A stretch of 64,000 nt of DNA from assembly GCA_020055645.1 (NCBI GenBank), contig CM034547.1, positions 28,520,513 to 28,584,512 of the forward strand. Reading direction: 5' to 3'. Shown piece after piece: positions 35,233 to 64,000 of this stretch. Each line of letters begins with the position of its first letter. The first letter of the stretch is position 1. The DNA is from Tomocerus qinae. Taxonomy: Eukaryota; Arthropoda; Collembola; Entomobryomorpha; Tomoceridae. The translations under genes and the position numbers were made by a program. The notes under the pieces are model-generated. The model made no database searches and had not been told where the DNA came from. It saw only the letters and a program-made list of their open reading frames with translations.

Positions 35233-35515
35233 AATATCGTCAATCGTGGGCAATTTTACCAACAACCATCGCTGCTCTGTGTTGTTCTGTTATCTTTCTT
35301 TATTCCTTATTGTACACATAGGTCATAGGTTTACTTATAAACAAGTCTTTCAAATTAATCTATATAGTCTAATATACAGAATTACAGAACTGAAGGAATT
35401 AGATAAACCAAACCTAATAAACTGTTTACTTCAATAGGGGTTTGTTGTTGGTAAACATTTGGTGATTAAATTAAGGTTGATATTAAGGTTTCGTTACATT
35501 TTTTGATCTTCAAAT

Positions 35516-37058: not shown

Positions 37059-38802
<1,744 letters not shown>

Positions 38803-40134: not shown

Positions 40135-41476
40135 TTAGGTCTCTACAATATCTTTTGCATTGTTGCCATTTTCTTGCTTTATATTACTTGTTCCGGGCAT
40201 TTCATTCTCAATTACAATATCAACAACAGCAGTAGCAGTGGCATTGGTTGTGCTTCGTTCTGTGGCAGGAGTGTTGGTGGGAGCTGTCTTATAAGTGTAC
40301 TCGTGATAGCTGTAGACATCATATTTCATTATTGAAGAGACCATAATAAGTCTTAAAATATATACCGCCCATAAGACCATATGCAAAATTCCAGCTATGA
40401 AAGCGATGAAGAAACAATATGCCACTGTCAAACCAGGGTAATGTTTCCAATTCAATATGGGATAAATATAATCCTGGTCATTAGGGTACTTTTGTTTTGA
40501 TAATTCGTAAAATCCCCTGTAAATGACATATTTCATTATAATTGGGTACATCAAACTTATTTCTATGTTCAAGTGTTCTTAGAATTCGTCACTTACGTAA
40601 AAGATGCATATATAACTGCATATACTGCCAGGTAGACAAAATGAGTGACATGGACTGGTACAGCATTAACCATTATGTCAATTACTGCGAATATACTATT
40701 TCCAGCATGAACCATATAATTTGCAGGATAGGCACAAGGAGGAATATGCATTTTATGTAAAGTATCGTTTCGGATGTTTTCCATTATTACTGGGTACAGA
40801 ACAATCCAATAAACTAATGAAATAACCAACGGGATAACGCACACGGAACTTAATAAAATCCAAATGAGCCTTTCGACGATATTTAGCTGAGTTGGCAAAA
40901 GAGTGTCCAATCTAGCAATATCTTGGCAAAAAAAGGAGAAAAAAAACTTTTACAAATTGACATTACCAATTTTTCGCATTTGTATTCATCTATTTAGATC
41001 TCCTTACCTTCCTTCTGCAGTCTTTCAGCGAGTAAATGATATAACACATTTAAAAAAAATAGAGTCCCGTATATGGCCTGAGTAACCACGGACCAATTAG
41101 TTAGATAGATTGAATAGAAAGTTCTCACTTCCGTGTCACAAGTAAGATCGACCATTATTGCAGAGATAAAATAGATCATGTAAATTGCTCTATATAGAAG
41201 ATATATAAGAGAAACTCCTTTGTTGCTCAAGAAGTTTTCCCACTGTTTAAGATTCATAATATATAACATAATGAATGTAATATTCATATGCACGGTAAAT
41301 TGTGCACGATTTAGTAAATGGCTATCAAGAATTTAGTAATATTGATTTTAGATAATGATGAACTATTTTCTTACTTCACTCTTCATAAACAATACTTTGC
41401 GAATTCCATTGGGATTCAAATCTTCTTTAAAATTTCGAAACGCCTTATGAAAGTCTTTGAATTTTCTCACTGGCAT
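40135..41476 (-). CDS. rost: Protein rolling stone-like, multi-pass membrane protein
   Basis: Four exons, 41375-41476, 41008-41242, 40597-40921 and 40135-40516, give 347 residues in consistent phase. Drosophila rolling stone is a plasma-membrane protein needed for myoblast fusion; the family is widespread in arthropods and its biochemical activity is unknown. Family landmarks are FYSIYLTNWSVVTQAIYG in exon 2, VHAGNSIFAVIDIM followed by PVHVTHFVYLAVYAVIY in exon 3, and YIYPILNWKHYPGLT in exon 4. About seven hydrophobic segments are visible. The C-terminal tail is hydrophilic and Thr/Ala/Asn-rich (APTNTPATERSTTNATATA). A decayed copy of exons 2-4 lies at 51695-52723 in the same orientation, beyond the inserted retrotransposon. 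Confidence 0.87.
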
Positions 41477-42853: not shown

Positions 42854-43408
42854 TTAATGGTTATTTAAAACATACAAGCAGGAATTGCATAATAAACCAA
42901 ACGGAATATTTCGAAAACATCGTACACATTTTGAGCCATACATTACAAACGGATCAATTAATTTACGATGAAGAATTGGACACGATGATAATAAATGATA
43001 AGGCGAATCACAACGAAAACAAAGCTTAGATCTGCCTCGTCGGAATATGTTGCTTATCTTCCTAGGTGCCTCTCGCGTTACTTGTCGAGACGATGGAAAC
43101 TTAAAATTCATCAACGACGGAATGTTCTTCGTGATAGGACGTCGTAACACACGTTCAATCGGATGTTTACGAATCATTTTTGGTAGTGGAGACGCATGTT
43201 TAAATGGACTCGGATCGACATGTTTAACCATCTCATCCTTCTGAGTATTTGAATTTACGCCGCCGCCATCCTCTAATAGAGTGCGTTCCATCTCCTCAGT
43301 GATTTCCTCAATGTCCTCGTCAGAGTTGCCTGCGATGACCATTTGCTCATGTTGGGAAATACCATTAGAAATCATATCTGTACATAAAATACAATGATTA
43401 GCTTTCAT
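42854..43408 (-). CDS. Extra zinc-knuckle ORF downstream of pol in the Gypsy element
   Basis: 184 residues starting at an ATG 12 bases after the pol stop, in the position where env lies in errantiviruses. It is not an envelope: no signal peptide or membrane segment is visible. Residues 130-143 form a perfect retroviral-type knuckle, C-x2-C-x4-H-x4-C (CFRCDSPYHLLSSC). Two further Cys pairs follow (C161/C164 and C174/C177), suggesting a zinc ribbon, and one precedes (C6/C9). Between them is an acidic stretch near residues 30-46 and a basic Arg/Lys-rich region (80-127). The reading frame is open upstream through the pol stop and is -1 to pol at a run of six A (43423-43428), so expression by frameshifting is possible. 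Function unknown; a nucleic-acid-binding accessory protein is an inference. Confidence 0.65.
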   Translation of the reverse strand: MKANHCILCTDMISNGISQHEQMVIAGNSDEDIEEITEEMERTLLEDGGGVNSNTQKDEMVKHVDPSPFKHASPLPKMIRKHPIERVLRRPITKNIPSLMNFKFPSSRQVTREAPRKISNIFRRGRSKLCFRCDSPYHLLSSCPILHRKLIDPFVMYGSKCVRCFRNIPFGLLCNSCLYVLNNH

Positions 43409-43419
43409 AACCAATAAAA

Positions 43420-46400
43420 CTATTTTTTCTTTGATTTCGCCGACTTCTTTGATACCGTGGTTTTTCGTGAACGAACAGTACTTTTCGCACGGGAAGAAGT
43501 TTGGGTACTTGGTGAGTGACCATAACGCTTAATAGCTTTTGTAGCTCTACCAGCTCTAGTTCTATAACTCGAATCAGATTCTGCGTCATAGTTAGTTGCA
43601 TCCGGTTGTACACTTTCTGGTACACTGGGCTCTATTGGTTCAGGTTCTACAAAAACATTTGCAACTTCGGGAAGTTGTTCTTGTTCGATTTCAAAAGGAT
43701 TTACTACAGATGAATGTGAACTAGATGTTCCACTATTTGTTGTAGAAATAGGAGTAGAATCAGTAAATATATTTCTGGGAGTTTTAGGGGTTGTTAGTGT
43801 GGAATAGAATGAATCATTAGAAATACTATTTGAATGTTGGGACGAAATTGCATTAACATTACTTGAATGTTGGGAAATACTTGAATTAATATTACTTGAA
43901 TTTTGAGAGTGATTAGAACTAACGGGTGAATTTTGTCTAGTCTTAAAGAAATCAGGGGGAATATACATTGAATTAGTAGAAGTTACTGTAGTTGCATTTG
44001 ATAAAGTCTTATTATTTGGAAAAGGGGTAGGTATAACTGGTATACTTGAAGAAAGAAATGTAACTTCTGTATAAACAGTGACATCAGAAATATGTCCATC
44101 TCCAGTCAACGTTGGGTCAGAGATTATCGCTGGAGGGTCAGAAATTTCGGAAGGTGACGAAAATTTACTGTTCGCATCATGAAAGGCTAGTTCTGGAGGT
44201 ATTTCATCATCAGAATACTCACACTTGTAATCTATTTCAGAATCAGAATTAAATTCATCATAATATGGCTTTAATTTACGAGTATTTTCGATTCTACGGA
44301 ACATTTTAGAATTAGGTCTTAAATCTTCCAGTAAATACGTTATTGGACCAGTCTTTCTTATAACACGGAATGGACCTTTGAAATGTGCAAGCCATTTCGT
44401 TACTTTACCAGGTTCACGCCTGAAATTTACGATTAATACCTGGTCACCGTTGGAATATTCAACCATAGGGTGTTTGGAATCCCATTTTAGTTTCTGTAGA
44501 CTCTGAAAACGATTAGTTCTAAGTCGCGCAAGTTTACGTGCTCTATTTCTCCGAATCTTATGTATACTACTTTCAGAATCACCTGCTTCATATTCAATTA
44601 CCGGTGCCCATATATCACAGGGTAAACGAGGCTCTCTACCATTCATTAAGTAGAATGGACTATAACCATTTATTGAATGACGGGTTACATTACAAGTTCG
44701 TACAGCTTCAGATAAAAGTTTATCCCAATCATTATGATTATTATTAACGTGTTTAGCTATAATACTTTTAATTGTCGCATTCGAGCGCTCTACTACTGCG
44801 TTAGTGGTTGGGTTATATGCTGAAGTGCGTATTAATTTCATGTTCCAATTATTGCAAAACTCTGTAAATTCTTTTGACATAAAATGAGTACCTCTATCCG
44901 ATAGAATTTCTTTTGGACAAGTATGACGATCAATAATACATTGTTTCACGAAAGCAATTGCATGCTTCGATTCGCAATTAGGTACAGGAAAAGCTTCGAT
45001 ATAACGTGTTAAATGATCTATGGCAATAATAATATACTTATTTCGCCTAGAGGGAGTTGTATTGAAGGGTCCCATAAAATCTATTCCAATCCTGTCAAAA
45101 GGTTGATCAGGTGGACAAACGGGTTGCAATGGTCCTGGTTTAGCGGTTGTTCTACGATTAAATAATTGACAAGTTTGACAGCCTAAAATGTATCTACGCG
45201 TGTGTCTATACATTTTTGTCCAGTAGAAACGAGATCTTAACAAACTCCAGGTTTTGAAAAATCCTAGATGAGCAATTGTGTCTACGTGTACTTCATCTAA
45301 TATTTTCTTACGTAACCCTTTTGGAACTACCAATAACCATAATTTATCAGTCTCTTCTAAACCTGCGTGATATAAAATACCATCAATTAAAGAATATACA
45401 TGATATTTAGGAGGTAAGTCATAATTAGGGTCATTCTTTACTCTTTCTAGTGCTTCAAAAATAGGAATTAAAGATGGATCTTCTAACTGCTTTTGGGCCC
45501 AATCGACACCTTGGAGTGATTGCAAATATTCAGCAAAATCTAAAAGATCATTGTCACTTTCTGTACTACATTTTATTGGATTACGGGATAAGAAATCTGC
45601 ATTTCCATGACTTTTACCAGATACATATTTAATTTCGATGAATTGCATGTAAGGTTGTAATCTAAGTGACCATCTAGCTAGTCTACCATGTGGATTTTCC
45701 ATTTTAAGTAGTGAACATAACGAATGATGATCGGTGACTACAGTGAAATGTCTACCTGAAATGTATGGACGAAAAGACTCTATAGCAAATAAAATACCTA
45801 AGCATTCGATCTCAGTTACAGAATACTTCTTTTCATGAGGTTTAAGAGATCTAGAGATGTATGCTACTACTCTCCAATTACCATTTTCATCTTGCTGTTC
45901 AAGTGCTGCTCCCAAACCTAACTCTGATGCGTCGGTGCATACTCTATTTGGTACATTATCACGAGGGTGTGCCATTACAGGAGGGGAAGTTAATGCGTCC
46001 TTGACTTGTTCGAAAGCGTCTTGTTGCTCTCTCTCCCATACAAATGGTACGCCTTTACACGTTAGTTTTACTAGTGGGGCAACAATTTTGGAAAAATTAC
46101 GAATAAATCTACGATAAAATCCAGCAAAATTAACAAATGACATAATACCACGGGCATTAGTAGGAGGTGGAAAATCTCTTACTGCCTTACACTTTTTAGG
46201 GTCTGCATGTACGCCTTCAGAAGAAACAATGAAACCAAGATATTTTAACTGATTATCTGCAAAAGTACACTTAGCAGGTTTAAGTTTAAGTCCAGCACGT
46301 TGTAAAGCTTGGAAAACTGTTTCAAGATGATCTATATGCAAATCAAAATCCTGACTATGAACTATTATATCGTCTAAGTACGCTAATGCTATGGTCCACT

Positions 46401-46854
46401 TAAGGCCGCCTAATACAGCGTCAATTAAACGTTGGAAACTTTGTGCTGCATTACATAATCCAAATGGCATAACAGTAAAATTGTATAAGCCGTTAGGAGT
46501 AACGAAAGCTGTTTTGTCTTGATCTTCTTCACTAACTTTTACTTGATAATATGCATTATCACAATCTATTGATGAAAAGAATTTACAATTAGCAAAACGA
46601 TCTAAAGCGTCATCTATACGTGGTAAAGGGTATGAATCTTTAACAGTTACAGAATTAAGTTTACGATAATCAACGCAAAATCTAAGGGTACCGTCTGATT
46701 TCTCTACTAACACAACGGGTGATGACCAAGGTGAATCAGAGTGAACAATAGCACCTTTTCGTAAAAGTTCATCAACTTGACGAGATATTTCTCTCCGTTC
46801 GTTATAGCCATATCTATACGGTCTTTGTTTAATAGGGAGGGCCCTTGGTGTCAA
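43420..46854 (-). CDS. Gypsy pol: reverse transcriptase, RNase H and integrase
   Basis: Open frame of 1144 codons; no ATG is expected because it should be part of a polyprotein with the protease frame that overlaps it by 26 bases. Reverse transcriptase covers roughly residues 1-260, with motif A Asp in SSIDCDNAYY (D97) and catalytic YLDD at 159-162. RNase H spans about 300-425 with Asp308, Glu near 348 and Asp375. Integrase has the HHCC zinc finger (H523, H529, C559, C562), catalytic Asp592, Asp653 and Glu689, and a GPF/KGPFRVI-type C-terminal module near residue 810. About 250 further residues are acidic and then Ser/Thr/Asn-rich, ending in a basic Lys/Ser tail, longer than usual for this group. 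Confidence 0.93.
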   Translation of the reverse strand: MTPRALPIKQRPYRYGYNERREISRQVDELLRKGAIVHSDSPWSSPVVLVEKSDGTLRFCVDYRKLNSVTVKDSYPLPRIDDALDRFANCKFFSSIDCDNAYYQVKVSEEDQDKTAFVTPNGLYNFTVMPFGLCNAAQSFQRLIDAVLGGLKWTIALAYLDDIIVHSQDFDLHIDHLETVFQALQRAGLKLKPAKCTFADNQLKYLGFIVSSEGVHADPKKCKAVRDFPPPTNARGIMSFVNFAGFYRRFIRNFSKIVAPLVKLTCKGVPFVWEREQQDAFEQVKDALTSPPVMAHPRDNVPNRVCTDASELGLGAALEQQDENGNWRVVAYISRSLKPHEKKYSVTEIECLGILFAIESFRPYISGRHFTVVTDHHSLCSLLKMENPHGRLARWSLRLQPYMQFIEIKYVSGKSHGNADFLSRNPIKCSTESDNDLLDFAEYLQSLQGVDWAQKQLEDPSLIPIFEALERVKNDPNYDLPPKYHVYSLIDGILYHAGLEETDKLWLLVVPKGLRKKILDEVHVDTIAHLGFFKTWSLLRSRFYWTKMYRHTRRYILGCQTCQLFNRRTTAKPGPLQPVCPPDQPFDRIGIDFMGPFNTTPSRRNKYIIIAIDHLTRYIEAFPVPNCESKHAIAFVKQCIIDRHTCPKEILSDRGTHFMSKEFTEFCNNWNMKLIRTSAYNPTTNAVVERSNATIKSIIAKHVNNNHNDWDKLLSEAVRTCNVTRHSINGYSPFYLMNGREPRLPCDIWAPVIEYEAGDSESSIHKIRRNRARKLARLRTNRFQSLQKLKWDSKHPMVEYSNGDQVLIVNFRREPGKVTKWLAHFKGPFRVIRKTGPITYLLEDLRPNSKMFRRIENTRKLKPYYDEFNSDSEIDYKCEYSDDEIPPELAFHDANSKFSSPSEISDPPAIISDPTLTGDGHISDVTVYTEVTFLSSSIPVIPTPFPNNKTLSNATTVTSTNSMYIPPDFFKTRQNSPVSSNHSQNSSNINSSISQHSSNVNAISSQHSNSISNDSFYSTLTTPKTPRNIFTDSTPISTTNSGTSSSHSSVVNPFEIEQEQLPEVANVFVEPEPIEPSVPESVQPDATNYDAESDSSYRTRAGRATKAIKRYGHSPSTQTSSRAKSTVRSRKTTVSKKSAKSKKK

Positions 46855-48310
46855 TACGGTGTTGAACTAGATCACAATGACCTAATTCATTAGAATCACG
46901 GATAAAAATATTGGCATAACGCTCAAGTAAATTATAAACTCGATCTTTTTGTTCAGGGGTTAGATAATTACCAACTGTAATTTCAGATAAAAAGTTAGGG
47001 AATTGTTCTTTCAGCTGTTGGAGTCTACAATCAGAATAAGAAATACAATTATTACATTTACTACAGTTCTCATGTTCAACTGTCTCTGGTTCAGAAATAT
47101 TAGTGGGAACGGAGGACGCTTTAGAAGATTTTACCTCCTGCTCCACATCATCAACATTACAAACTATTTGTGCATCTGTGCATTCTTCATATTCACCTAT
47201 CACAGAATTTGGAAATATTTTCACAGGTCTACAATTTAAATTAGTAATGTACGTAAATGCTTGGCCGTCCTTTACTGTGAGTAAAGTACGTCCGACTGCA
47301 AGTCGCTTAGTAGTCTCAAATTCTTTTCTAGGTAAAATTAAAACTTCAGAATTAATAGAATGTTCGGTTCTAACAGGCACACGTTTAGCTATATTCGGTG
47401 GAATAATCATTGCTTTTATAGAATATACTTTTTGACTTTTTGTTACGCTAGAATCAGGTGTAAATGCAGACGGGTTAGTGGGTATTGAAAATTCTTCGGT
47501 AGGTGGCGAATCATAAGGTTCTACAGTCTCTGGCATTACTGTACTTTCGGTTGGAGGGCTAGTATAATCGAAAAAGAATTTAGAATGATCTTTGGGATAA
47601 AGTTTACGTTCTTTAGATAAATCAACGCCATATGTGAAAATGTTTTTAGTTTTTGTACCATAATTTAATTTCACCCTGTATGCTCGCAACCAATCTTGAC
47701 CTAAGACAATTTCGTTAGATAAATTATCTACTAAGAAGAATCTCCACAAAATTCTATGACCGTCTATTGTGACAAACATTTCTACTTCTTTCGAAATGAA
47801 ATAATCTTTACCATCATCTATTGAAAGCTTAACAGGAAAAGGTGTAATATCCGATACTTTATGAATGCAATAAGTTGGATGATTGCTATTGTTAAGTTTA
47901 GCCACTAAAGTATTGAATGTTTGCGTTTTAATAGCTGAAATAGTCGCACCATTGTCTACTAGTACACCATGCTTTTTACCGTTGATTTTAAGAGGTAATT
48001 CTTTAGAATATCGAGTACTATTTAAATGCCGATACCTAGCAGGATACATACCATATGGTGTATTCGTGAAAACTGTGCATGCTTCTGTCTGACTAGCTGT
48101 TACGTTACAACTCGAAGAAACTTTTTCAGATTTTACTATGACTTTCCGTTTAATATCCTCTAATGTAACCGGACACGGATTGTCTAAAGGTGGAATATCA
48201 TTAGAAACTAAAGAATTCTCTGAGGTTATGCAAGATAATATACGATTTATATTACCGTCTGACTTGCTTGTATTATTACGAATGGAAAAACCAAGAACTG
48301 AATTAACCAT
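46829..48310 (-). CDS. Gypsy protease region of pol
   Basis: 493-codon frame. A retropepsin core is seen as KHGVLVDNGATISAI with the flap-distal motif EIVLGQDWLRAY about 85 residues later. The active site reads DNGA instead of the usual DTGA or DSGA. The C-terminal 60 residues (FPNFLSEITV, ...DLVQHRIDT) are the normal lead-in to reverse transcriptase, but the frame then stops; RT continues in the +1 frame at the GGG/CCC-rich run 46835-46846. The frame is open upstream of the first ATG to about 48433. Confidence 0.85.
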   Translation of the reverse strand: MVNSVLGFSIRNNTSKSDGNINRILSCITSENSLVSNDIPPLDNPCPVTLEDIKRKVIVKSEKVSSSCNVTASQTEACTVFTNTPYGMYPARYRHLNSTRYSKELPLKINGKKHGVLVDNGATISAIKTQTFNTLVAKLNNSNHPTYCIHKVSDITPFPVKLSIDDGKDYFISKEVEMFVTIDGHRILWRFFLVDNLSNEIVLGQDWLRAYRVKLNYGTKTKNIFTYGVDLSKERKLYPKDHSKFFFDYTSPPTESTVMPETVEPYDSPPTEEFSIPTNPSAFTPDSSVTKSQKVYSIKAMIIPPNIAKRVPVRTEHSINSEVLILPRKEFETTKRLAVGRTLLTVKDGQAFTYITNLNCRPVKIFPNSVIGEYEECTDAQIVCNVDDVEQEVKSSKASSVPTNISEPETVEHENCSKCNNCISYSDCRLQQLKEQFPNFLSEITVGNYLTPEQKDRVYNLLERYANIFIRDSNELGHCDLVQHRIDTKGPPY

Positions 48311-48559
48311 ATTACTTAAAGAACGATATTTATAAATTGTAGGACTATAACGAAAACTATTAGGTACTGTAATACTAGCTAATGCTTGCTGCTCTAACTT
48401 TTTTAGGAATACAATAGAAACTATCTTTTACTTTAGTAGTACTATTAGAACGAGAAATAACAGAACGTAAATTTTTCTATTCACAAAAACTATAGACTTT
48501 GCATAAGAAACATTTTTTAGATTTTGCCCGATGGGGTTTGTCAATCTTAAGAAAGGATT

Positions 48560-49751
48560 TTAGTTTCCCGGCGGCTTTTCTGGACGATAACGATTTGGAT
48601 TTTCGTCAACGCAGCCCCTTTCTGAATCGCGTTTTAATTTCCTACAAAATCGTTTTGTGTGACCTTTGACACCACAGTAATAACAAAGGAATTCTCTTCC
48701 TCTCAGTAGGTTGAGGGGGATTAGGAGTTTGATTTTGATTCTGGTCTTGGGAAGTGGTTGGTTTTCCATGGTAAAAATTACGATTACTTGAATTACGAGA
48801 AAATGTACGACCAGAATGTTCTTGTTTAGAATTAGAACTATTTGATACTACAGGTCCAGGAACAAAACTACTTGACCGATTTCTAGAACTATCAGAATTA
48901 TTAGTACTACTGTTATTAGCATACATTTCTGCTATTTTTCGTAGCTTGTCTAGGAATTCATCACATGTTTTAATGTCTTGCCCGACAAAACATTTCTGTA
49001 TTTCGAAAGGAAGAGTCTTGGTCAACTGCTCAATTCTCTTTCTATCGGACATGGATGGATCTATGTGACGTAGTATTTCCATCTTTCTAGCTACATAATT
49101 CTGAGGATCATCACCAATTTTATACTTTAATTGGGAATTTTGTACTTTATAAAAGCTTTTCTGGGAAGTATGATCGAAAAATTTACAGAATCTAGTTTTA
49201 ATACCAACCCAGATACAATCAAAATCACGGTTAGGAGCTTTAATCTGTGTTTGAACTGAAGGTGACTCAGAGGTCCACCAATTACGCGCGTCGCCGTCTA
49301 ATACCCTATCAAAATTACATATAGCCCATTCGGAATCAAATCCATTGAAACGAATGTCTGTTTCAAACTTAGACAAGAATTCTTCGGCATCAGTTTTGCC
49401 GTCATAGTGGCGCAGTTGAGCGATTGCTTGGTGATGCAAATATAGATTAGAGGGAATGGAAAGTACTGGGACAGCATTATTACCAGCATTATTTAAATTA
49501 CCAGTATTAACATCATTACGAGTATTTGAATTATCATTGCCCGTATTTGAATTATTGGTATTATTACGTGAGTTACCACTCCCGGACTGTTGAAGTTCGT
49601 CTAGACGTTGAGTGAGTTGACGAATAATATCTCGTAAGTCGTCTTCTGTCTGCGGCTGATCAGTCGTGTTATCACTAGTCTGTCCTCGACCTCGGCGGGT
49701 TTCGTCTCCATTCTCCTGCTCGTCGCCCAAATAATTGTCTCTGTCATCCAT
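48560..49751 (-). CDS. Gypsy gag (frame broken before the zinc knuckle)
   Basis: The frame from ATG 49751 runs 369 codons to 48642. It begins with an acidic, charged region, has a Gln/Asn/Ser/Thr-rich segment and a capsid-like region (LRHYDGKTDAEEFLSKFE, then GDARNWW), typical of retrotransposon Gag. The CCHC knuckle CYYCGVKGHTKRFC lies in the +1 frame (48560-48769) and is reached only by a one-base shift near the run of five C at 48715-48719. Because capsid and knuckle normally belong to one Gag, this looks like a mutation or an assembly indel rather than a programmed site. Confidence 0.85.
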
Positions 49752-50673
49752 AGTTAATGTTACTCGATAAGCAAACTAAGGTAGAAATGAAAAAGAATTA
49801 GAATAGCCAAAGTAAATGATAAATTATGTACATTGAGTTCAAGCAGACATCGTCAGTAATTACCAGACGAAAAGATATAATATTATGATTACCGATAATT
49901 ATTCAACCAAAGTTAATTAAAGGTAAGGCGACAATGCTGATAGTGCATGTCTACCGTAGATAAATAAGTAATTTTTAGCCAAAAAGAAACTCCAAGTTAC
50001 TGATAATGCTTGCAACAGATTTTATGTCTGACAAAGGAATGTCTTTGAAACAACCTTGAACTGAACTCGCCTGATCTGTGAGTGCGGCCTGAAGGGCCCG
50101 TATCTACCACCAACAATAAAGTTCAATTCAAAATGTTACTGAAAAGAATAATGATTGTATATAGCCAAATTAAAATGTTCGTAATTTTGATCAGCTGTTT
50201 GCTTTGAAACCAAAAAGAATTTATAACCTTTAAGAAATGCGATTACGTAAAATGTAATGAATCCAACCGTTTGAGGACCACCCCAATATCGGCGATTGAA
50301 GTAAGTTTCAATTACTGAGCACAATTTGTACTCTTCGAAATCGCAAGGTAATTCTTTAGGTTGAACTTTAATATAGCAATTAAATCTGAATAATTCGTCT
50401 AGTACAGACAACGGATTAAATGGAAACATGTTTCATTATGATGAATAGTATAATTGGAAATTCAAAAAGTACTAATTAATATTTTTACCACTGAAGAATG
50501 ATTTTACGAGTAGTGTATTAAATAGATTTTTACTTACGATACCGGTGACGAAATTTACCAATACGGGAATATTTCAAATTGAAGATCTTCTGGTACTCTT
50601 TTTGGAAAATGTTACCGATTTCGACGTTCCGGAATTTTGACAAAATCTTGCGGCTCACAAAGTAATACCCCGC
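49752..50673 (-). other. Gypsy 5' leader with a 97-codon ORF
   Basis: Leader between the duplicated LTR piece and gag. It holds one ATG-initiated frame at 50136-50429 whose product has a hydrophobic stretch (TVGFITFYVIAFL) and otherwise matches nothing I know. Long leaders and upstream ORFs occur in Gypsy elements; whether this one is translated is unknown. Confidence 0.4.
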
Positions 50674-51694: not shown

Positions 51695-52723
51695 AGTGGT
51701 AGCTGTAGACATCATATTTAAATATTTTAGAAACTATCCAAAGCCTGAAAAGATATACCATCCATAAGATCATATCCAAAATTCCAGCTATGAAAGCAAT
51801 GGAGAAACAGTATGTCAATGTCAATCCAGGTTCATGTTTGCAATTCAATATAGGATAAATATAATCCATGTCGTAGGGATATTTCCCATTTACTAATTCG
51901 TAAATTTCCCTCCAAACGAAGGCAATTGAGTTTGAAATTGAAAGAGTACAAATATTATTGGAATGAATTAGAGATTCATTTACAAGGTATTGACAATTTT
52001 TAGAAACTATTATTTCCTAAAAGACGGTAAATATAAATGCATACCTATAATATATTGTCAGGTAGACGAAATGAGTGACATGGACTGGTATATTTCCAAT
52101 ATTAATACTGACACTATTTCCAGCATGTACCATTAAGTTAGCAGGAAATGCACAATCCGAAAATCCTTTATGTGCAATTGTGTCGTTTCGAGATTCTGCT
52201 GATTCGATAGGATGATAGTGAATACAGTAAATTAAATGATAGGATGACAGTAAATTAAAGTAACAACCCATGGGATAACACATACAGAGGTTGATAAGAT
52301 CCAAATGAGTATCTCCAGGATATTTAGCTGGGTTAGTAAAAGAGTATCCAGTCTAGCAACATCTGCTGCAAAACATACAGTTTTAAAGAATGAACGATAT
52401 GACTGGTCAATTCGAATTTAAAATTGGAAATATAGAACTATGAATTCATACAAACACTGAAATTCTTGTCTCAATGTCTCAAGTTCATTTCCTCACCTTT
52501 CTCTTGTAATCTTTCAGCTAGAAAATGGTACAACACATTTCCAAAAAATAGAGTCCAATATATAGCTTGAGTTACAACGGGGTATATCGAGTAGTACCTG
52601 TAGTACACAGCAACATCTGGTCTACAATGACGTCGGCAATTATTGCAATGATAAAATAATAAGTCATATATTCTGCTCTGTATGCAAGAGTAACTCCGCT
52701 GTTTCCCAATACAATGTCCCACT
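51695..52723 (-). pseudogene. Decayed second copy of rolling stone
   Basis: Reads as exons 2-4 of rolling stone with the introns still in place, so it is a duplicated gene, not a processed copy. The exon-2 copy (about 52487-52723) contains TQAIYWTLFFGNVLYHFLAE but has lost the LTNWS segment and changes frame before it. The exon-3 copy (about 52030-52370) contains VARLDTLLLTQLNI and VHAGNS, with an in-frame stop and a local duplication around TATCATTTAATTTACTGT that breaks the frame. The exon-4 copy keeps DYIYPILNCKHEPGLTLTYC but ends with TAG right after SYH, losing the hydrophilic tail. No exon-1 copy was found. Orientation matches the intact gene at 40135-41476. Confidence 0.8.
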
Positions 52724-53520
52724 GTAATAAAGATTAAGAATTAATTGGATACTGAAAACCAATTCACTAGGCTGGTTTTGAAATTTTCTTATGCATTTTC
52801 TTTATTGAAAAATAATTGGAAAATATGGGAAATTGTTTAGTGTACGTATTTGTTGAGGTGTCTTGCTTGCTGTGTCACTTATGTAATGAAGCTAATCTTT
52901 GAATATGTGTGATATGCGTTTGTATTTGTTTGTAAACATATTTTTATAGAGAAATAATGTATTTAATGTGTTTGTGTGGTAATTGTTATATTAATTGTCT
53001 TAATTCAAGTCCTCCTTGGATGAAAATTGCCCAATACATACAGACAAACAAGGATCAAGGGTAATAAACTTCTGATAGCAGTATTAAAATTAGTTCAGGT
53101 ATTCCTATTTATTATTAGGTCTGGTCAAATCTGTGTAAACTCTAAAAGTTGTGCACTTTTATGCTGGATAAACAGTACTACTCGCTTAATTTAAAAAACT
53201 GAATGCTGGCTCATAGAATTTTATTACAGTACTGAGACTAGGGAATGATATGGTTCATCAAACTCTTAAATTCTTCAATTCAAATTCAATTCAAATTCTT
53301 AAAAAAACAGCCATTTATTATCACAAACAATAGTTAATAGTACACTAACACGCATCGGCAATCGATTTCAGTATACTGTATGCAATACATTAAAACATGT
53401 TGCAGACATTTCACCAATAATGGAATAAGTAACAAATGTTATGATATATCACAGGAGGTATTGTAAATATAATATAAGTGTATAGTACACTTATAACAAT
53501 ATAATTATGATCCTCTTTAT
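52724..53520. other. Intergenic region downstream of the channel gene
   Basis: AT-rich; should contain the 3' UTR and polyadenylation signals of the minus-strand channel gene. No coding sequence recognised; a missing first exon of the rolling stone pseudogene was looked for here and not found. Confidence 0.4.
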
Positions 53521-56500
53521 TTATTTCTTGGGTTTTTCTTTGCGATGTTCAAATATATTGGAAATAAATAGTTCTGCTATTAAATTCGGATATCTTTTAG
53601 CGACCAATCTCTTTAAGAATAATTTCCATCGAGGATAGTTCTTAGCAATGTGTTTGATATCATTTTGGTGCAATGAGATGACTTCAACGTAGCCCTCTGC
53701 CCGATATGTTTTATTGTAACTGACATTCCTAAATAAAGCAGGAACTTTACCAAAAGCTATGTTAGGTCCATATTTTTTGAGAAATGTCGGTTGGCCAGTT
53801 ATTTTGTCGATTCTATAAGATGAAACTTCTCCTTTAAAAACCACGAAAACCTTTCCTTCCAAATTTCCTTGACGCATTATAATGTTTCCGGGGAGGAAAA
53901 TGTCATGAGTTAAGCGAGCGCAAATATTTCGCAACAGGCTAGCATCCTTTTCAAGGCCAAAGAATTTACACTGAAAACAATTGAAATTATTTATTATTTT
54001 GGTCTCAAGAGTGTAGAAATGAATCTAAATAAAAGCACAACATTTTACAATTTACTTATCTATCATCATGCACATAAACTCTTGGTTCACATTATATTAA
54101 TAAGTAACTACAAGGGATTAATATATTTTTTTGTGTTTTTAAGTGGAAATCAATAAAACTACCTTTTGAACACATTTGTAGTAAATTGCCGTACAAACGT
54201 CGAATTGCAATGATAGTGGGAGCACTGAAATAGCTTCAACATAAGATACTCCTCTCGCATTGTGCCATTTAATGGTGTAATAAGTCATCAACAATTGCTG
54301 ATAATCTTTTGAAAGTCCAATCCCCCCTAAATGGTTCTATAAAAAGAAAAGCAACAAATCATTTGCCTTTTAATCCATATCAACTGTATTTAAATTAGAT
54401 ATAATGTCTTACGCAAAATATGTCTGCGTAGTAAAAGAATTCTCGTCTGGCTTGATACCAGGATTGGAGACCAGTTGTCACGTTGCCTATTAATATGCAC
54501 ATTCCGAATGCACAAAATATAAAGGCGAGTATAGAGATTTCAATTTCTTCAGCGTTATTTGGAGTTATATCACCAAATCCTGTAGTGGTCAAGGTGGACA
54601 TCACCCAATAATACGAACGGATGTACCACATGCTAGGCACGTCAGTCATCTCTCGCCCCTTACGATTCAGGAACTCATATTTAACTAAAAGTTATACACA
54701 CATTCTAAATATTATGTTCCCGAATATTTGCTGTGTTCGTATTATTATAACTTGTTCCTACGTTCTTCGACCCAACTATCCCGTACGCAATCGTCCTTTC
54801 CTAGTGCATCTGATGCACAAGCGACTGCATAAAATGCACAGGCCAAGACGTGGGACACAATAAAAAAAGCAGATAGGGATATAGATATTTTAAATCTGAG
54901 ATTAGACACATCAAGATCATGACGTGCTGTCCAAAGATAACGAAAATATTCAGGCTAAAATATAAACATCGTTCATGATTATTCACATGCACAAAATATG
55001 AATAATTTGCATTACTAATCTCAAATATCTCAATCAAGGGTACTGCCTACGGTAAGGAATCAATATGCTTTACCAGGCGCAAAAATCTTATGAGAAGCCA
55101 ACGTGTATTATGTCCACCAAAGTATTGCACTGGGAGGGATGACAAGAAATCCAGTAAGAATAATCGCGGACGGAGCAAATAGCTGAAATATTAGTTACAA
55201 CAGTTAATGCTGAATTTTACAGACATAAAGAGATTGCACGATAAATATGAAATACATTTATAAGGAATAAATAAATGTAAGTATATCGTTGTATATTATA
55301 TGTCATTGTTCACAAACTTTGCAATGACCCTTGAATATTGCACACAGAATAGCCCTCGTTCTAGTTCAAGTGCAGTAAAGAAATTTACTATTATGTGGAC
55401 GAGGAAAACTCTTTCAAAAATAGACGTGCAAGACAGTACAAAATCAGTAACTGGGTCATGAACAATTCCACGGTGGTAGAAATAAACCTTGTACGATTCC
55501 AATGCAGGAGACAATATTCGTATGGCCATTACTATTGTCGAGAATATTGTCATACACTTACACAAGGGATGAATCATGTATCTGAAATAAATAGTGAATT
55601 AACTGATCCCCTCGAAAACTCTAGATTAATCAGTAACTTCAGTATAACTTAGGAAAACATCAGTATGGAAATGTACTTTCATTGTAAATTATTCAAGGGA
55701 ATAGAGAAAACTAATGCGAAAACAATTAACTAACTTTCCTGTGAAATACAAAAATTGAGATCTTGGCAGTACATTGCTATCCTTGCTAATACCAATAATA
55801 TTCGACCAAAAGGGCTTTTTTGTTTCAGTAAACGTTGCTTCGTTTCCATCAAAGACCAACCGTGTTTCGTTCTCACTAACAATTTGGCGGATTATTTCTG
55901 TAAATATCTCTTTATCTTTACAGTATTTGTCGTTATCTTCTACTTGTTTGGCTCTGTACTTTATTTCAACGTATTCAACCCCTTCTTCAGTTAAGGCAGA
56001 TACTACATTTGCCTTTAGTTCAGGGTATAATTGAAGTAAGTTTGCAAAATCATCTGCAGAAATGACATACGCTTCAACATTATTTGCTGCAAATGCCGAG
56101 TAATGTCTTGGAACTCCATAAATTAAAGAAAGTTCGCCAAACATTCTGGAAAATGTCAAATTTTTTACTAAGACATCGGGTTTAGTACCTAGGAGTGTGA
56201 TGATAAGGAGTATGTGATGCTTATCAAGAAATAAATAATTTCCTTACTCTCCTCTGGTCAAGGTACATTTCCATCGTAAATTTTGGTCGGTAATATAGAC
56301 GTCCCCATCCACTATCACATACAATTGATATTCCATATTCCCAAATCGAGCCATTCGTTGCCCGGCAGAAAACGATTCTTGCCTCATAATCTTGCTCATA
56401 GCTCTTATGCAATTACTGCCAAATTCTTGAAATAGTGGTATCTAAATTTAAATCATATAAGTACATAATTTCATATGCATGCACCCTAATTAAACTCTGG

Positions 56501-59500
56501 GAAGAAATACTGATAAGTCGTGATAGTTTTCTCAATTAGAACTTTCCAGAGAAGATTTCAGAAATCGATCATTCCGAACAAACTGGATTTTAAAACTGCA
56601 AAAGGAAAGGCTTCCACCCCACCATGCAGACTGTTATATACAACTTCAAATAACTTTTCCTCTCTGGAAATCCCATGAGACACAATGATGGTGCCTGTGC
56701 CTGAGTGAGTATATTAAATTTAATTGGATTTTACCCCATTAAACACTTCCCCAACAAATTCCTGAAACAAGTCTCCTTCCAAAATGGGATGAAGGTGTCT
56801 AAACAGCTAGAAAATATTCAATAATCAGTAATCATTATTATTCACTGATCCATACTTGTACTGAGTAAGTATTTTCAAGATTTTAGAATAAGTACAGCGA
56901 TGGAGCTACAAAAATCACTTTACATCTCTTGGTTGTATTCCTCTGGTCACAGCCCAAGTGTGCCGGAAATGGCGTCGTATATTCCTTCATTCAAAAACAG
57001 CGTATTATTTTCATAATTCAAATTAATATTCTGATGCTCAAAGTTAATTATAATATTATCCCAGCCCTTTCTCACCCACTCAGTCGTTTATGCACATCTT
57101 CACGCTTCAAAATAGTTATCAATCGATTTCTTTGTTCCCTAAAAATATGTCTATCTTGGTTACTATCAATCATGGAAGAGGACAAGTCAGCAATCATAAA
57201 TTGGTAAATAAATGTTCCTATTTAAAACATAAAGAAATTAGCCAATTGTATGTATACACAAATATACACTAAACATGTGCAGCGTAAGCGTAACTTTAAT
57301 ATGAGCATAACTATACCTATATTTACTATATAATTTATGTAAACCTACATAACTATGCCTCTAGGAAATAAATGGCAGAAAATGTTCTAGTGGTCAAAAA
57401 TGCTGTAAAGTAAAATTCTAATACTACATCAACATCAACGACCGGGTATTTACAAATTACAAGCAATTTTACTGCAGTAATGTGAAAAAATTGCGTTAGT
57501 TTGAGACTTTAGGCTATTCTATTTTTACGTCCTTTATAGCTAACTGTATTGCCAATTAAGACTTCAGCCTGCCTTCATAGGCTACTTTAGCTGCTACCAT
57601 AAAATAAAAACATTGATTTGTTTTAAAAAAAGTTTGTTGCTTTGCTTATAAAAATTAGAGCTCTTATAAGAGGCAAATAAAATTAAATGCTAACCGGGTT
57701 GGGTAAAAGCTAATATATTTCTACCTATATATATGGTAGGTAATGCTAAAATGCAAAAATGCTCAAGCGCTTAATGAGATGCATAATTGCATAAACAATG
57801 AATCACAATTGGCGATATTAGAATTTTTCGAAATGAATCCAAACATTGAAATTCAATAGGACTGCTGGTGGCCTAGTTGTGTCTGTACATAAAATATTAA
57901 ATCTTGCAAAATTTGGGGTAGTCCCGACCGACTCGTCGGTCGGTATTTCGGTTATTATGATAGTTACAAATATCATACTTTACCAACGATTATTAAGAAC
58001 ATCAAATATGGAAGTTCGTCAGCCTTTTTCGTAAAGGTATCGCCATATCCAATTACCAAGATCACTTGGGAGACATAATAGTAGCCAAGTAGAAGTCGCT
58101 CAAGTAAAACACCTTGGCCTTCTTCAAATCCGACATAATTAGGATCTATTGCCTTCAGATGGTCGAAAGCTTTTAAAAATAAAGGATTTTATATTATGGA
58201 CACTACTTTTAAGGAAAACTTAGGAAATGCCCATAATAGAGTATATATGTATACAAACCGTCTTTTTTAACAGTAATCCATGATCCTAAGCTGCAAGCAG
58301 GTAATCTGTATTCATCCCCTTCATTCCAGTTCACTATCAATTTTGGGCAAGCTGTGTTTACAGCAAACATTGTCAAAATCATAGTAAATATGAAATATAC
58401 TGCACAGTATAACCCAAGTCTAAAAATGTAATAACCTTAATCATTATCAATGCTTTAAGAACAGTATTCTTCCACAAAATGTTACATCTTTATGAAGTGT
58501 CATTTAATATGTGTAGTAAGATTTGTAATCTACCAAACTAGAAGGAAACATAACGTACATTACAATGAATCCTTTGTCAATAAATGAATCATATAAAATC
58601 CAACATGCTTCAGGCATTTTGTAAAATCTGAAAAATCTTCCCCATCGGAGCAATGAATACCAACGGTAGCCGCTGCCGTAGCCGTATATATCCGTTGCGC
58701 CATACATGTACACAATTAACTCTGCCGGACACAGTAAACATAAATCGAAGAAAAAATTTCCATGATAGACACTCTTGAGAAATGTCCTGATGGGATGGTA
58801 ATAAAGCGTTCCATCCAAATCATAGTAAGCCCAATGAAGCTTCACGTATCTATTTTGATGCACACAAAGCCAAAAGTTATTAATCATCATTCACAATTGT
58901 GTCATAACATTTAACTGTCAATAATAAATAATCCCATACAAAGAAATGAACACATAATTTATTTTTTGTTAATCCCTGTTGAAATGCACTGACAACGAAC
59001 CAGTCTGTCACTAGTCAGTACTTAATTAATTATACTTGTTATTGACAGCATAAGTCACCTAAGTCCGTTATTTCAGGGTTGATTAAAAAATAATCCTCTA
59101 CATCTGAACACAACATACGCACTCCATCGTTGACGCCACAGTAGTTAATCCTACCTATTATCATCGATGTAAATTCATTGCTTTGTTTTTTTAACCTTCG
59201 TTAGAGCGAGTTTTACTGGGAATGGAAGCTTTAAAATGAAAAACTACACTCTGTTAACTCCCTTCTGGAAGTATTAATGAATATACCAGCTAAGCCTACG
59301 TAAATATTGTCACTTGAAAGCATTTCCAAAAATCCAGCGATAGATAACATATTAACACCATATAAACAACGACAATTACTTAATTTCTAATAATATCAAT
59401 GATTATATAAGTTCGGTGAAAATCCCGAAAACTCTTACGTACATGTCTAATGAATTGACAATGTCAATAAGTATTTGAGTCACTCTTAGCCAAGGTGGTC

Positions 59501-62500
59501 TGTAGTCCATAATTGTTTCCATTATCAGAGTTAACAGCAGTGTTGTGCAATTTATACTTTGTAGAATCACCCAACATGTTGCAAATATTCCAGATGGATG
59601 AATCGTAAATGGTAACATGAACAGCCTATATTATCAAAATACCAATTTGATGCTCAATACTAAAATGTATGAAATTTTAAGCATTCATCAGGTAAAGAAT
59701 AATTGAATTAAATCATGTACTTGATTAAATTGCCATATTTTGTTCTACGAAAAGGTTCGTCATACTCTTCGACAGTTGTTCGGAAAATATTTCCAGAGTA
59801 ATCCGATTCATGTTTAGGGTACTCGATCCAAGAAGGTTGCAAAAGAGGAACTCCATTATGCCGAGTGTCCTTGAAATATTTTTTTGACGACAACTTCTTT
59901 ATGATATCTTCTTCTTCTCGCTGAATTGATTGGCAATGAATTTTTATTTTATATGAATGAAAATAACTTGCATTTTTATATTAAAATAGCAAGTATAACA
60001 TACAACAGCAGAAGCATTGAAAACATCGCAAAGAAAAATTATCAGTACGAAGTCGCTTACACAAGATTGTGCCATGAAATCAATAAAAAATTTCTCTTCT
60101 GACAACAAGTCATTAACCATTTTGAAGTCAATTGCGAGTAAAATGACGTGTCCTACTGTTCTGACAGTGTATTGGCAAGGTTCGCCATATAGCAAATCTC
60201 TAATGCCATGATACCCTGTTGCGTCCAAAATAAGTGTTGGGACTTCATCATCAGGATGTGTATAGAGCTGCAAAAAGCCATTTTAAATACGCAGATATAA
60301 TACTGAGTGCGACTAATCCTTAGAAGTTCATATCGGATAAAACGCAAAAGACTATAAACACGGAGTAAATTCCAGATAAGAAAGGAAATTGTTTATTTAA
60401 TTAACATAACATTTATTTATAAGGTAAACAAGCACTAAAACTCACAGCAATCGATCCTTTGAAAACTATGTACATCTCTCGCCTGACCTCCCCGGCGTCC
60501 ATAAAAGTTATTGACGGTGGAAGTAAGTATCGTTTTAACATTTTGCCTGCTCGTATAATAATCTCTGGATTACATTTCTACAATAAACACATTTATGAGG
60601 TCAATTTATCGTAATGGTTATTTACAGTCGGAATTCCAATGCCAATGCACCGTTAATCATGCTAAATTATGTAAACCAGATAAGGAAATGTGAATGAATG
60701 AGTAGATATACGCAACAAATCTCGTAATTGTTATGCATATCTGACTGAACAAACAGTATTTTATATGACTATTGGATTTAGTTTAGTAATGTACATATCA
60801 TATGGAATATGGATAAATGGTAATTAATTCTATTTGTTGTTTTTAGTACCGAGAAAATCGTGACTCCTTCTAAAAATGGTAAATACTCCGTATATACAGC
60901 ATCATCAAGAAGTTCCTTTGGAGCATCAAACATTAAATTATTTACTGCAATATCATTGGGAAGTGGCACTTCATATCTGAGTTGATGCTGAAGGTTGTAA
61001 TGCTCCAGCTAAAATAATTGAAAATGTAAAAGTGCATTTCATGCATAGCATGCGTTGATACGCAGGTATATTATTATCACTCTATAGCCTCCATCTTACA
61101 TAATAGTCCAACTAAAAGACGATAAACAGCAATTGCTACAAATTAAATTGATATTGATACCTACCACTCTTTCTTGAATTGATTCTCCTAAACCATATTG
61201 ATACATGAAATGCTTCATTGCTTCAATTTTTTGATGAAAAATTAATCTGAAAAAGAAATATCGATTTTAGATGATTATAATGTAAATATATACGTGTATT
61301 CAAAATATTTTCATGAATAATGAAATACGAACATGTGGTAAGATTCTCTCGAGTCTCGACATGGGCTTACCGATTCCTAATCCGAGCTGTGAGAGCAGAT
61401 GTAATGCCGGCCATTAAATACATAGTGAAGAAAACTCCAATAATCATCACCATGATAGTCCATATCATTTCATACGATGTCTGTGGAGTGTAATCTCCGA
61501 AACCAACACTGGTTAAGGTTATTGAGGCAAAGTAATAAGCCATAGAAAACTGATTAACATTTGTAACTAAATTGGCTGATACATCGCTGTCACTTTTTAA
61601 GAAGTCCACATCCATCCAATTGATATCTCTGCATTTTTTACCCCACCTGTTGATCCATTACATACATAATCTTTGTGACAATAAAAATTAAATTAATTGC
61701 TGAGTTACTCTGTTCAGTTAAAATTAATTATTAAAATTCACAAATTTGCATCCATTCTGGACCAAGGCCGCAGCCAAGGGGGGAGCACTGGACTCATGCT
61801 CCCCCCTTCTCGGTGCCCCGCACGAAATTTTTTTCTGGCTGCGACCCTGTTCTGGACCTACATATTTGCCTACAACAACAGGGGCAAATTGAACAGGCGC
61901 ATTACATTAAGATTAAATGTAATACTGATGAATTAAGGAAAATGATATTAAGTAATTATTTAACCCATTGGGGCATGCCATCCAGAAAAATGAACAAGCA
62001 GACCATTGTATGCATATCGGAAATGTAACGACAACTTTGAGAAATCTAATTAAAACCACATTGGTGTCCGGTCTGTTATCTAAATACTTAAAGTAGCGAA
62101 AGATCTGTAAAGAAATGCAAAATAAATATAAGTATGTAGAACGTAATATTGATGGTTTGATAGGGCATATTTGTAGTTTTTAGCTAAACAGCATCAATTA
62201 AGTGTAAATTTTCGAAAATACCTTCCAAATTTTGCAAAACGATCTGAGTACAATTGGAAACCACACATCAGACAGATCATAATTATAGTCCAATATATAA
62301 GGAGTGAGTTTGTCCAGAAGGGGAAAGATGTACAAATATTCAAATGGAATACAAGAAATTACGTCCAAGTAGAAGGTAAACTGGCAGCTTACGGTATAAA
62401 ATCCATCAACCAATTTATAGTATATACCTATGTAATTGCACAATATTATTTTGTAGTATAAAACATTGTTTACAGTTAGAATTTAAAACGCTTCAAGCCC

Positions 62501-64000
62501 CTGCCCTGCTTTTACCCAGCATTCAATATTAATAACAAAGGCACGAGTCGGGTAACATTATTTATTGAATAAACTCAACAATCCTATCCTATCGACAGGC
62601 TATCGACTTGCTTTGTCGATTAATTGTGTACCTACCATTTCAAGGCAGAAAATATAGCATTAAAAAGTTCTATTTACGCTTTTTACTTTTGTTTGAATAA
62701 TGCAGATGTGGGTATAAATGTGCTTGAAATATACTTATATGTACCCAGATGTGGAATTTATACTATTACTAGTAGTGAAGGGTGAGGGAGGGGTCATGTT
62801 AGCCATAGCCATACGTCAAATAAAATATTCAAGGAATTACGATCCGTAAGGTTGTCAGAAATCTGTACGTGCATTTTGATAAAACAACATCACTATAATT
62901 GCTTTAATCTTACAACGATTCAGCATATAACAATTAGACATCTCGTTTATGTTTCCCTATAAACCATATGGTACATGGTACGAAATTGGGCTAATGTAAT
63001 CTTATCAAGACAAGGAGCATTTGTCCCTTCACTACCTTTATATTCACTATCTGTAAAGCAAATATCCAGCTTGAGCTTGATTTTACAAATAATTTTAAGC
63101 ATTGCATAAACCAAGAAGGGTGTGAAAGTTGTTATAAGCAATTATTAAGCTTCCTCTTAGGTATAGTTATTGATTACTCATGATTAGGCTCTAATAAAAC
63201 GAAATTATGTGAGCGAATCATTTCAATCCGGTACAATGATCCAGTAAGAGTGCAGAAAAGATTGTATTACAATTAAATTTTTCGATAATGTACCCCAAAA
63301 GCAGATTACCCGAAGCCCGACACACTATGTCCCTAAGTCGGGTGAATTGTGGACGTGGAACTATATAGAACCTATATGTTTTTATACGCATAAAAAGTAT
63401 ACCTGTGACAGGAGCAGCACCCAGTATTTCAATAAGGACGTCAATTACATTAACAAAAATTGTGAACCATCCAAACCAAAAATGACATATGTTATAAGTG
63501 TCATCTTCTGAGCTGAATGCAGCACAGTATGGGACCGTAAATGAAACAACAGTAAGGTAGATAACAAACATATGCGCCCAAACTTTGATAAGGATAGGTC
63601 GATTCTCAATTAAAATCGGAGCAGCAATCAATCCTGAGTAGTCCATATTCTTTTCCGGAATTGTACAAAAATTAATGGAAGATAAGAATGTAGTAGTGTA
63701 AGTGCAAGGATTAAAGGATTAGTTAATCAATAGTACCTTTTTCAGTTTTTTGTTTGTGCATGGCATGTCAACTATATACACGCTTGCTTCATCCATTACA
63801 ATATCACACTTGACAATACGATTAAAACCAGTCGCTCTGTAAAATTGTTCAGTAATTTAAAATGATTAATTGGTCAGAAATCAAAAAAGGCCAATAATAA
63901 AAGTGACAGGTGAAAATAATTTATACTTTCTAAACACGACCGTGTAGTCATGATCCAAATGCTCGTTTCCAGTTGCATCAGCTCCTTTATGCTTATGTAC
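53521..64000 (-). CDS. Multi-repeat single-chain CNGK-type cyclic-nucleotide-gated K+ channel (three repeats in window, 5' end outside)
   Basis: Exons: >63927-64000, 63737-63836, 63310-63649, 62222-62427, 61965-62104, 61371-61646, 61165-61246, 60850-61008, 60446-60577, 60061-60267, 59721-59920, 59443-59625, 58559-58849, 58259-58419, 57984-58169, 57076-57217, 56924-56984, 56735-56806, 56248-56441, 55735-56145, 55318-55581, 55074-55182, 54762-54954, 54413-54684, 54163-54336, 53521-53970. All use GT-AG and agree in phase, giving 1692 residues. Three S1-S6 units each contain a pore with a K+ filter: SVGFGDYTP (335-338), VIGYGDTF (891-894) and TTGFGDITP (1430-1433), 540-556 residues apart. Each is followed by a C-linker and a cNMP-binding-like domain. 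S3 signatures are FYLDVISCIPFEY, NFFFDLCLLCPAE and FLLDFLSSLPVQYF; S4 segments are weakly basic. Only the middle binding domain has the canonical cassette FGELSLIYGVPR (1071-1082). The alternative, three separate genes, is disfavoured by continuous splicing across both repeat borders. Confidence 0.88.
57924..57943. repeat. Small perfect hairpin in a channel-gene intron
   Basis: CCGACCGA and TCGGTCGG form an 8-bp stem around the loop CTCG, GC-rich in an otherwise AT-rich intron. Possibly a transposon remnant. Confidence 0.5.
61763..61849. mobile_element. 87-bp hAT-type miniature element in a channel-gene intron
   Basis: Ends CAAGGCCGCAGCCA and, on the other strand, CAGGGTCGCAGCCA (12 of 14 matching) form terminal inverted repeats. 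Direct repeats TTCTGGAC at 61755-61762 and 61850-61857 are a perfect 8-bp target duplication. Inside, GGGGGGAGCA pairs with TGCTCCCCCC. The GC-rich block stands out from the AT-rich intron. No coding capacity. Confidence 0.8.

Follow-up and report, generated by a model that had tools for sequence, protein, structure and literature searches.

A probable four-repeat, single-chain potassium channel of the CNGK type, encoded by one of several related genes in the springtail Tomocerus qinae

The window analysed here, a stretch of 64,000 nucleotides from the springtail Tomocerus qinae (C2:28520513-28584512 of a 334 Mb genome), contains at 53521..64000 on the minus strand repeats II-IV of a channel gene, designated K1, that continues beyond the window edge to an ATG at extended coordinate 72469 (C2:28592981). 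With high confidence K1 can be read as a four-repeat potassium channel, and it is quite probably one gene for a single-chain (pseudotetrameric) CNGK (tetraKCNG) channel, belonging to a set of five or more in the genome. K1 is likely a new arthropod member of the CNGK kind, to which the present analysis adds a five-gene family, a single intact phosphate-binding cassette in repeat III, and a pair of SLC9C1-like genes lying upstream.

Inside the window the K1 model comprises 25 exons (63836-53521, minus strand) and 1,637 residues, with an incomplete first codon and no internal stop; the exons were placed by hand on the minus-strand reading and their phases checked, all 24 introns are bounded by GT and AG, and the frame ends in a TAA stop at 53521 and is still open at its upstream junction. 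An earlier note on this DNA had described three complete units, each with a pore and a cyclic nucleotide-binding domain (CNBD), in one spliced frame, and these are present at the place given; of the 1692-residue frame that it reported as open at the window edge, the open junction stands, and the length is revised to 1,637 residues, or about 1,658 once the in-window part of exon D6 (63936..64000) is added, with some exon boundaries differing. The fourth repeat that the note expected upstream was found in the 9 kb directly adjoining the window (stretch L009), where six exons, D1-D6, encode repeat I, including its CNBD and a filter that reads TVGYGD, bringing the full model to 31 exons, 2,165 residues, and four pore-CNBD channel units; the D4-D5 intron is 5.5 kb long and repeat-rich. 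The chance of 2,165 open codons is about 10^-45 at three stops per 64 codons, a figure in which the freedom of splice-site choice is not counted. When the paralogue K2 was used as the query in a spliced alignment, 23 of the 31 exons were recovered exactly, a recovery that is not fully independent because the K2 model was itself built with K1 as the query; D1 and C6 were cut at the protein ends, one spurious 2-base exon was added, and other edges were given for D6, A8, A9, B4, C3, and C4.

Following the direction of transcription, repeats I and II are joined by a linker encoded by D6 (63936-64060, 3' edge unsure) and x0 (63737..63836). Repeat II and the II-III linker occupy exons A1-A9 (59721..63649), namely A1 63403-63649, A2 62222-62427, A3 61965-62104, A4 61371-61646, A5 61165-61246, A6 60850-61008, A7 60446-60577, A8 60061-60267, and A9 59721-59920 (A8 and A9 edges unsure); A4 encodes the pore, the filter SVGFGD, and S6, and A7-A8 (60061..60577) encode a CNBD with a degenerate cassette, having Ile for Glu and Cys for Arg. 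After a junction intron of 95 bases, repeat III and the III-IV linker extend over exons B1-B8 (55735..59625): B1 59443-59625, B2 58559-58849, B3 58259-58419, B4 57984-58169 (5' edge unsure; pore with filter VIGYGD), B5 57076-57217, the C-linker exon B5b 56924-56984, which needed separate finding, B6 56735-56806, B7 56248-56441, and B8 55735-56145. Exons B7-B8 (55735..56441) form the sole K1 CNBD with Glu and Arg in register (FGELSLIYGVPR). A further junction intron of 153 bases precedes repeat IV, exons C1-C6 (53521..55581), with C1 at 55318-55581, C2 at 55074-55182, C3 at 54762-54954, C4 at 54413-54684 (pore, filter TTGFGD, and S6; C3 and C4 edges unsure), C5 at 54163-54336, and C6 at 53521-53970, the last encoding the CNBD (Lys for Glu, Ser for Arg) and the stop codon.

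The channel character of these units is supported by domain, filter, and structure matches. The cNMP_binding matches of units II, III, and IV exceed the Pfam cut-off (6.4e-7, 2e-12, and 1.4e-6), and that of unit I was obtained at 6.9e-11 in the genome profile search; Ion_trans is matched by units II (3.6e-8, with Ion_trans_2 at 8.6e-11) and IV (1.3e-13), and unit III gives no Ion_trans match in Pfam at E<=1, its front half having been identified through its match to unit I and to the paralogues. Among solved structures, unit I matches KCNH5 best (7.4e-20), unit II GORK (6.4e-18), unit III SthK (2e-23, covering pore to CNBD only), and unit IV CNGA1 (4e-23). The assignment of transmembrane segments relied on visual inspection and homology rather than on a dedicated predictor, and the putative S4 carries four or five Arg/Lys in every unit of K1. 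The filters of units I-IV read TVGYGD, SVGFGD, VIGYGD, and TTGFGD, so that GYG or GFG is present in each and the residue preceding the filter glycine is V, V, I, and T in turn. CNG, HCN, and KCNH channels share the same unit plan and have one unit per chain.

A genome search for cNMP_binding returned 31 places, and 20 stretches of 10 kb were read by translated matching, which revealed four further loci with units ordered I, II, III, IV: K2 (C2 42.16 Mb), K3 (C4 30.67 Mb), K4 (C5 4.26 Mb), and K5 (C2 10.70 Mb; L023/L024, C2:10.694-10.706 Mb), the last from weak, partial matches. Models were built with a purpose-written spliced aligner, whose self-test reproduced the exons of K1 repeat IV; those of K2-K4 are stop-free and 2,085-2,114 residues long, a freedom from stops that is partly by construction, as the aligner penalises stops, and that of K5 is rougher. 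K1 is 34.5% identical to K2, 33.8% to K3, and 21.8% to K5, and K3 and K4 are 80.2% identical to each other. Of the 30 K1 introns, 24 recur in K3, 23 in K4, and 9 in K2 in common phase and position (within 3 alignment columns), against a mean of 0.66-0.84 and a maximum of 6 under random placement in 2,000 trials; this sharing is largely independent support, because the aligner saw proteins and not K1 introns. Of the 31 places, 11 fall in K1-K5, and because five others (three on C1 and two at C2:61.81 Mb) are unread, the number of four-repeat genes in the genome, as judged from these models, is at least five. The other places include CNG-like and KCNH-like ones, as well as some that we take to be PNPLA6/7-like, and pieces resembling single-unit CNG, HCN, or KCNH genes lie elsewhere in the genome (L027, L028, L030, L031, L033, and L035).

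Relatives were sought by protein searches covering 5.8 billion proteins. The in-window residues of K1 found four proteins, the best being P0001 (1,947 aa), whose four units are co-linear with those of K1; no G[YF]G occurs at any of its four pores, its lone GFG (at 1561) preceding the pore of unit 4, and P0001 is possibly a CNGK derivative without K+ selectivity. Repeat III of K1 found one protein, P0005 of Aphanomyces invadans, and part of K3 repeat IV found four, two from the springtail Allacma fusca (P0006 and P0007) and two JGI proteins (P0008 and P0009). P0006 is a predicted protein of 2,307 aa with the same four units in the same order, and P0007 keeps that order without repeat I; these two are the closest relatives found, resembling K1-K4 in unit order, in identity (32-41%), and in the Glu and Arg pattern described below, but lying closer to K2-K4 than to K1 and carrying no channel name in the records seen. 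The Allacma hits lend indirect support to the placing of K1 among arthropod genes. G[YF]G is present in all four units of K1-K4 and P0006 and in all three of P0007. In K1-K4 and in the two Allacma proteins, repeat IV is the only one with Thr before the filter glycine; in K5 this Thr is found in repeat II instead. It was also observed that the K5 repeat IV filter is GLSD, not GFGD, so one pore quarter may be altered in that rough model. Four CNBD-channel units occur in the oomycete proteins P0005 and P0002 (Phytophthora fragariae), and P0008 and P0009 contain three such units and the start of a fourth.

In a 44-row tree spanning seven genes (K1-K5 and the two Allacma proteins), repeats group by position, with support of 98/96 for I (six rows), 90/89 for II, 99/98 for III, and 98/92 for IV, and the same grouping is obtained with K1-K5 only; the four-unit form is therefore older than the gene duplications. 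The mutual clustering of repeats within a chain, which the earlier note had listed as evidence against a CNGK channel, is accordingly not seen. The four P0001 repeats join groups I, II, III, and IV respectively, their branches being long and marked by the program as unsure, and a single clade of the 27 repeats and the four of P0001 is not rejected (p-AU 0.44). All four Aphanomyces repeats fall with CNG and EAG in the K1-K5 tree (94/91), as do two Aphanomyces units and three JGI units per protein in the 44-row tree (93/98). The latter tree omitted units 1 and 3 of Aphanomyces, the four units of Phytophthora, and the truncated fourth unit of each JGI protein. An initial tree built before the paralogues were included had little resolution (1 of 18 inner branches starred), placing repeat I beside the plant channel SKOR (88/72) and Aphanomyces unit 3 with K1 repeats (34/72); the four Phytophthora units were included in that tree only.

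Two residues of the phosphate-binding cassette, Glu and Arg, have roles known from work on CNG and HCN channels and PKA, and their distribution sets repeat III apart. Glu and Arg, nine residues apart and in register, are found in repeat III of all seven genes versus none of the 20 other CNBDs (0/6 in I, 0/7 in II, and 0/7 in IV; the alignment of K5 repeat II is poor). In repeat I, Glu is present in 6/6 with Tyr or His in place of Arg, repeat II keeps Glu in 0/7 (with the same reservation for K5), and repeat IV keeps Glu in 1/7 (K5) and Arg in 0/7. On this pattern repeat III is somewhat favoured as the sole ligand site. In sea urchin sperm, ApCNGK and Sp-tetraKCNG likewise combine four units of six transmembrane segments and a CNBD with G(Y/F)G filters in one chain, and ApCNGK is reported to be gated by one cGMP at its third CNBD (PMC4749565). 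The third CNBD is thus functional in sea urchin CNGK as reported, whereas here an intact third cassette is read from sequence. In ApCNGK, three of the four repeats have a Thr just ahead of the filter glycine, to which Na+ block is attributed; freshwater CNGKs lack this Thr, and in freshwater fish its loss is linked to weak Na+ block (PMC4749565). K1, by contrast, has it in repeat IV only, and K1-type pores are predicted to show weak Na+ block. K1 also differs from sea urchin CNGK in having a likely terrestrial host with five genes found in one genome. DrCNGK of zebrafish sperm shares with K1 the four-repeat K+ channel plan and the lack of most filter Thr, but it is reported to respond to alkaline pH and to carry an insert of 42 residues in its third C-linker (PMC4749565), whereas the repeat III cassette of K1 is intact.

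By this mechanism, one K1 chain would fold into one K+-selective pore, which cyclic nucleotide bound at repeat III alone would open through the C-linker, and the resulting K+ efflux would hyperpolarise the cell; in sperm, the next step would be the switching on of the voltage- and nucleotide-regulated Na+/H+ exchanger SLC9C1. In sea urchin sperm, tetraKCNG acts before an SLC9C1-type exchanger and CatSper acts after it (PMC6660944). About 60 to 74 kb upstream of the K1 ATG, on the same strand, exons for a Na+/H+ exchanger, a voltage sensor, and a CNBD occur as two tandem sets (L012 1902-8697 and L013 904-6192; C2:28.653-28.667 Mb, minus strand), so that all three exon kinds stand in order on one strand twice, as judged from exon matches. 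For the exchanger exon of the nearer copy (L012), the leading match is "Sperm-specific sodium proton exchanger" (1.4e-95), with the next kind at 4.9e-64, and the two neighbours may be SLC9C1 copies. Two Ion_trans places upstream of K1 had been considered as a further channel and were rejected, with exchanger exons alongside. The linkage between K1 and these genes is suggestive only, having been noticed post hoc with 28.6135-28.651 Mb in between unread and SLC9C1 loci not counted genome-wide.

Several observations nevertheless weigh against parts of the reading of K1 as a ligand-gated CNGK channel of sperm. The K1 transcript is predicted from genomic DNA, and its start ATG is placed solely by an in-frame TGA shortly upstream, a further 5' exon being possible. 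No sea urchin or fish CNGK was returned among the 5.8 billion proteins with the K1, K1 repeat III, and K3 repeat IV queries, and one clade of repeats is not shown, because SKOR falls among them, on the same side of the trees as the K1-K5 and Allacma repeats. CNGK repeats have been described as pairing 1 with 3 and 2 with 4 (PMC7576140), and this pairing, clear in K1 (55 and 46 bits versus 12-30), is not used here as support because the paralogues disagree: I-II is best in K2, I-IV in K3 and K4, and I-III in K5 without II-IV, profile scores are mixed, and I+III in the 44-row tree is weak (85/46). As regards the ligand, zebrafish CNGK is reported to be opened by alkaline pH and is distinguished from the sea urchin channels that cGMP activates (PMC4749565); family membership is therefore no proof of ligand gating. 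The Arg of repeat III is followed by H, E, K, K, L, R, and R in K1-K5, P0006, and P0007, respectively. Thr follows the cassette Arg in CNG or HCN channels, and cGMP is not predicted over cAMP because that residue is not Thr here. As regards the neighbours, the L012 voltage-sensor exon matches T-type calcium channels (4.8e-31) above the sperm exchanger (3.9e-7), and three of the four CNBD exons scanned in the two copies are below the Pfam cut-off. A search for CATSPERD found nothing in the genome, and the controls of the same search were likewise silent.

Against this background, the joining by splice prediction of what are really tandem, ordinary single-unit CNG or HCN genes is very improbable. 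Exon joins predicted in this way have some uncertain edges, and K2-K4 lack a counterpart of the III-IV junction intron; however, at 95 and 153 bases the II-III and III-IV junction introns are too short to separate distinct genes, the I-II (x0/A1) and II-III (A9/B1) junction introns recur in paralogues, all four units stand in one predicted Allacma protein, and the unit order recurs at four other loci. On the same grounds of intron length, shared junctions, and the Allacma protein, separate transcripts for each unit are unlikely. A fusion of four units that arose independently within arthropods, working alike without being orthologous to the sea urchin and fish channels, deserves more weight and is still rather unlikely. 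The four-unit proteins of Aphanomyces and Phytophthora, with the JGI pair nearly so, show that such chains also exist outside animals, identity between the repeats and the named channels used for comparison does not exceed 21-25%, and no animal CNGK was among the compared sequences, in whose trees SKOR intrudes. On the other side, the unit number, the K+ filters, and the surviving third CNBD agree with what is reported for sea urchin CNGK, and the repeats included from oomycetes and the JGI proteins group with CNG and EAG, Aphanomyces unit 3 in the first, unresolved tree excepted. The tandem CNBD channels of oomycetes and dinoflagellates resemble K1 in carrying several CNBD-channel units in one chain but are described with two units (PMC7576140), and those oomycete repeats that were placed in trees take other positions. 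CNGK is reported from choanoflagellates to fish (PMC4749565), and inheritance needs no new fusion; the species listed in that paper are fish, sea urchin, acorn worm, amphioxus, sea anemone, tunicate, sponge, and choanoflagellate, with no arthropod. Similarly, the main text of PMC7576140 contains neither "arthropod" nor "insect", and no arthropod CNGK appeared in titles or abstracts on CNGK, tetraKCNG, and springtail CNG channels in a mostly non-subscription literature.

The four-repeat CNGK kind proposed by the earlier note, with four units, K+ filters, and a CNBD in each, is thus the reading retained for K1. A main role in sperm is an even call, and a four-repeat K+ channel working outside sperm, for instance in sensory neurons or osmoregulation with paralogues split among tissues, is a possibility of somewhat lower standing. 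Five genes exceed the need of one sperm role, the channel-exchanger linkage may be chance, and no CatSper gene emerged from the CATSPERD search, in which the controls were silent too; yet the family members studied are in sperm (PMC4749565, PMC8835908), the SLC9C1-like genes are linked to K1, and a CatSper4-like expressed sequence tag is known from the Arctic springtail Onychiurus arcticus (PMC2572835). Allacma makes many spermatophores, and its sperm flagellum is densely coiled (PMC9630974). It may be proposed, tentatively and with some doubt, that CNGK was kept on land as a springtail family of at least five channels, that one-ligand gating through repeat III is ancestral and predates the split between arthropods and sea urchins, and that the whole CNGK-SLC9C1-CatSper sperm relay persists despite spermatophores. 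The opening of a K+ pore by one ligand on one of four units is now testable, because the one intact site is the same in all seven genes, and so is the pore Thr as a marine trait, because the K1-K5 and Allacma genes are mostly without it, like freshwater fish as reported. A land arthropod is thereby at hand for testing the sea urchin sperm pathway.

Other features were noted in the genome and the window. The insect odorant receptor family 7tm_6, whose absence is expected outside winged insects, gave a single weak place genome-wide (8.6e-6); as the control genomes are without that family, this is weak evidence on the host. In the window, a Gypsy-type long terminal repeat retroelement lies at 42857-49775 (minus strand), with a pol-like frame containing RVT_1, RNase H, and integrase domains, and two copies of a membrane gene are found at 40138-41332 and 51696-52740 (both minus strand); one exon of the former matches rolling stone (Rost) below the Pfam cut-off, and the latter shows an apparent frame change between its pieces. 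Genes like proteasome assembly chaperone 3, ATP_bind_1 (GPN-type), and Acid_PPase (MDP1-like) occupy 34837-36657 (plus strand) and 37326-38928 (minus strand).

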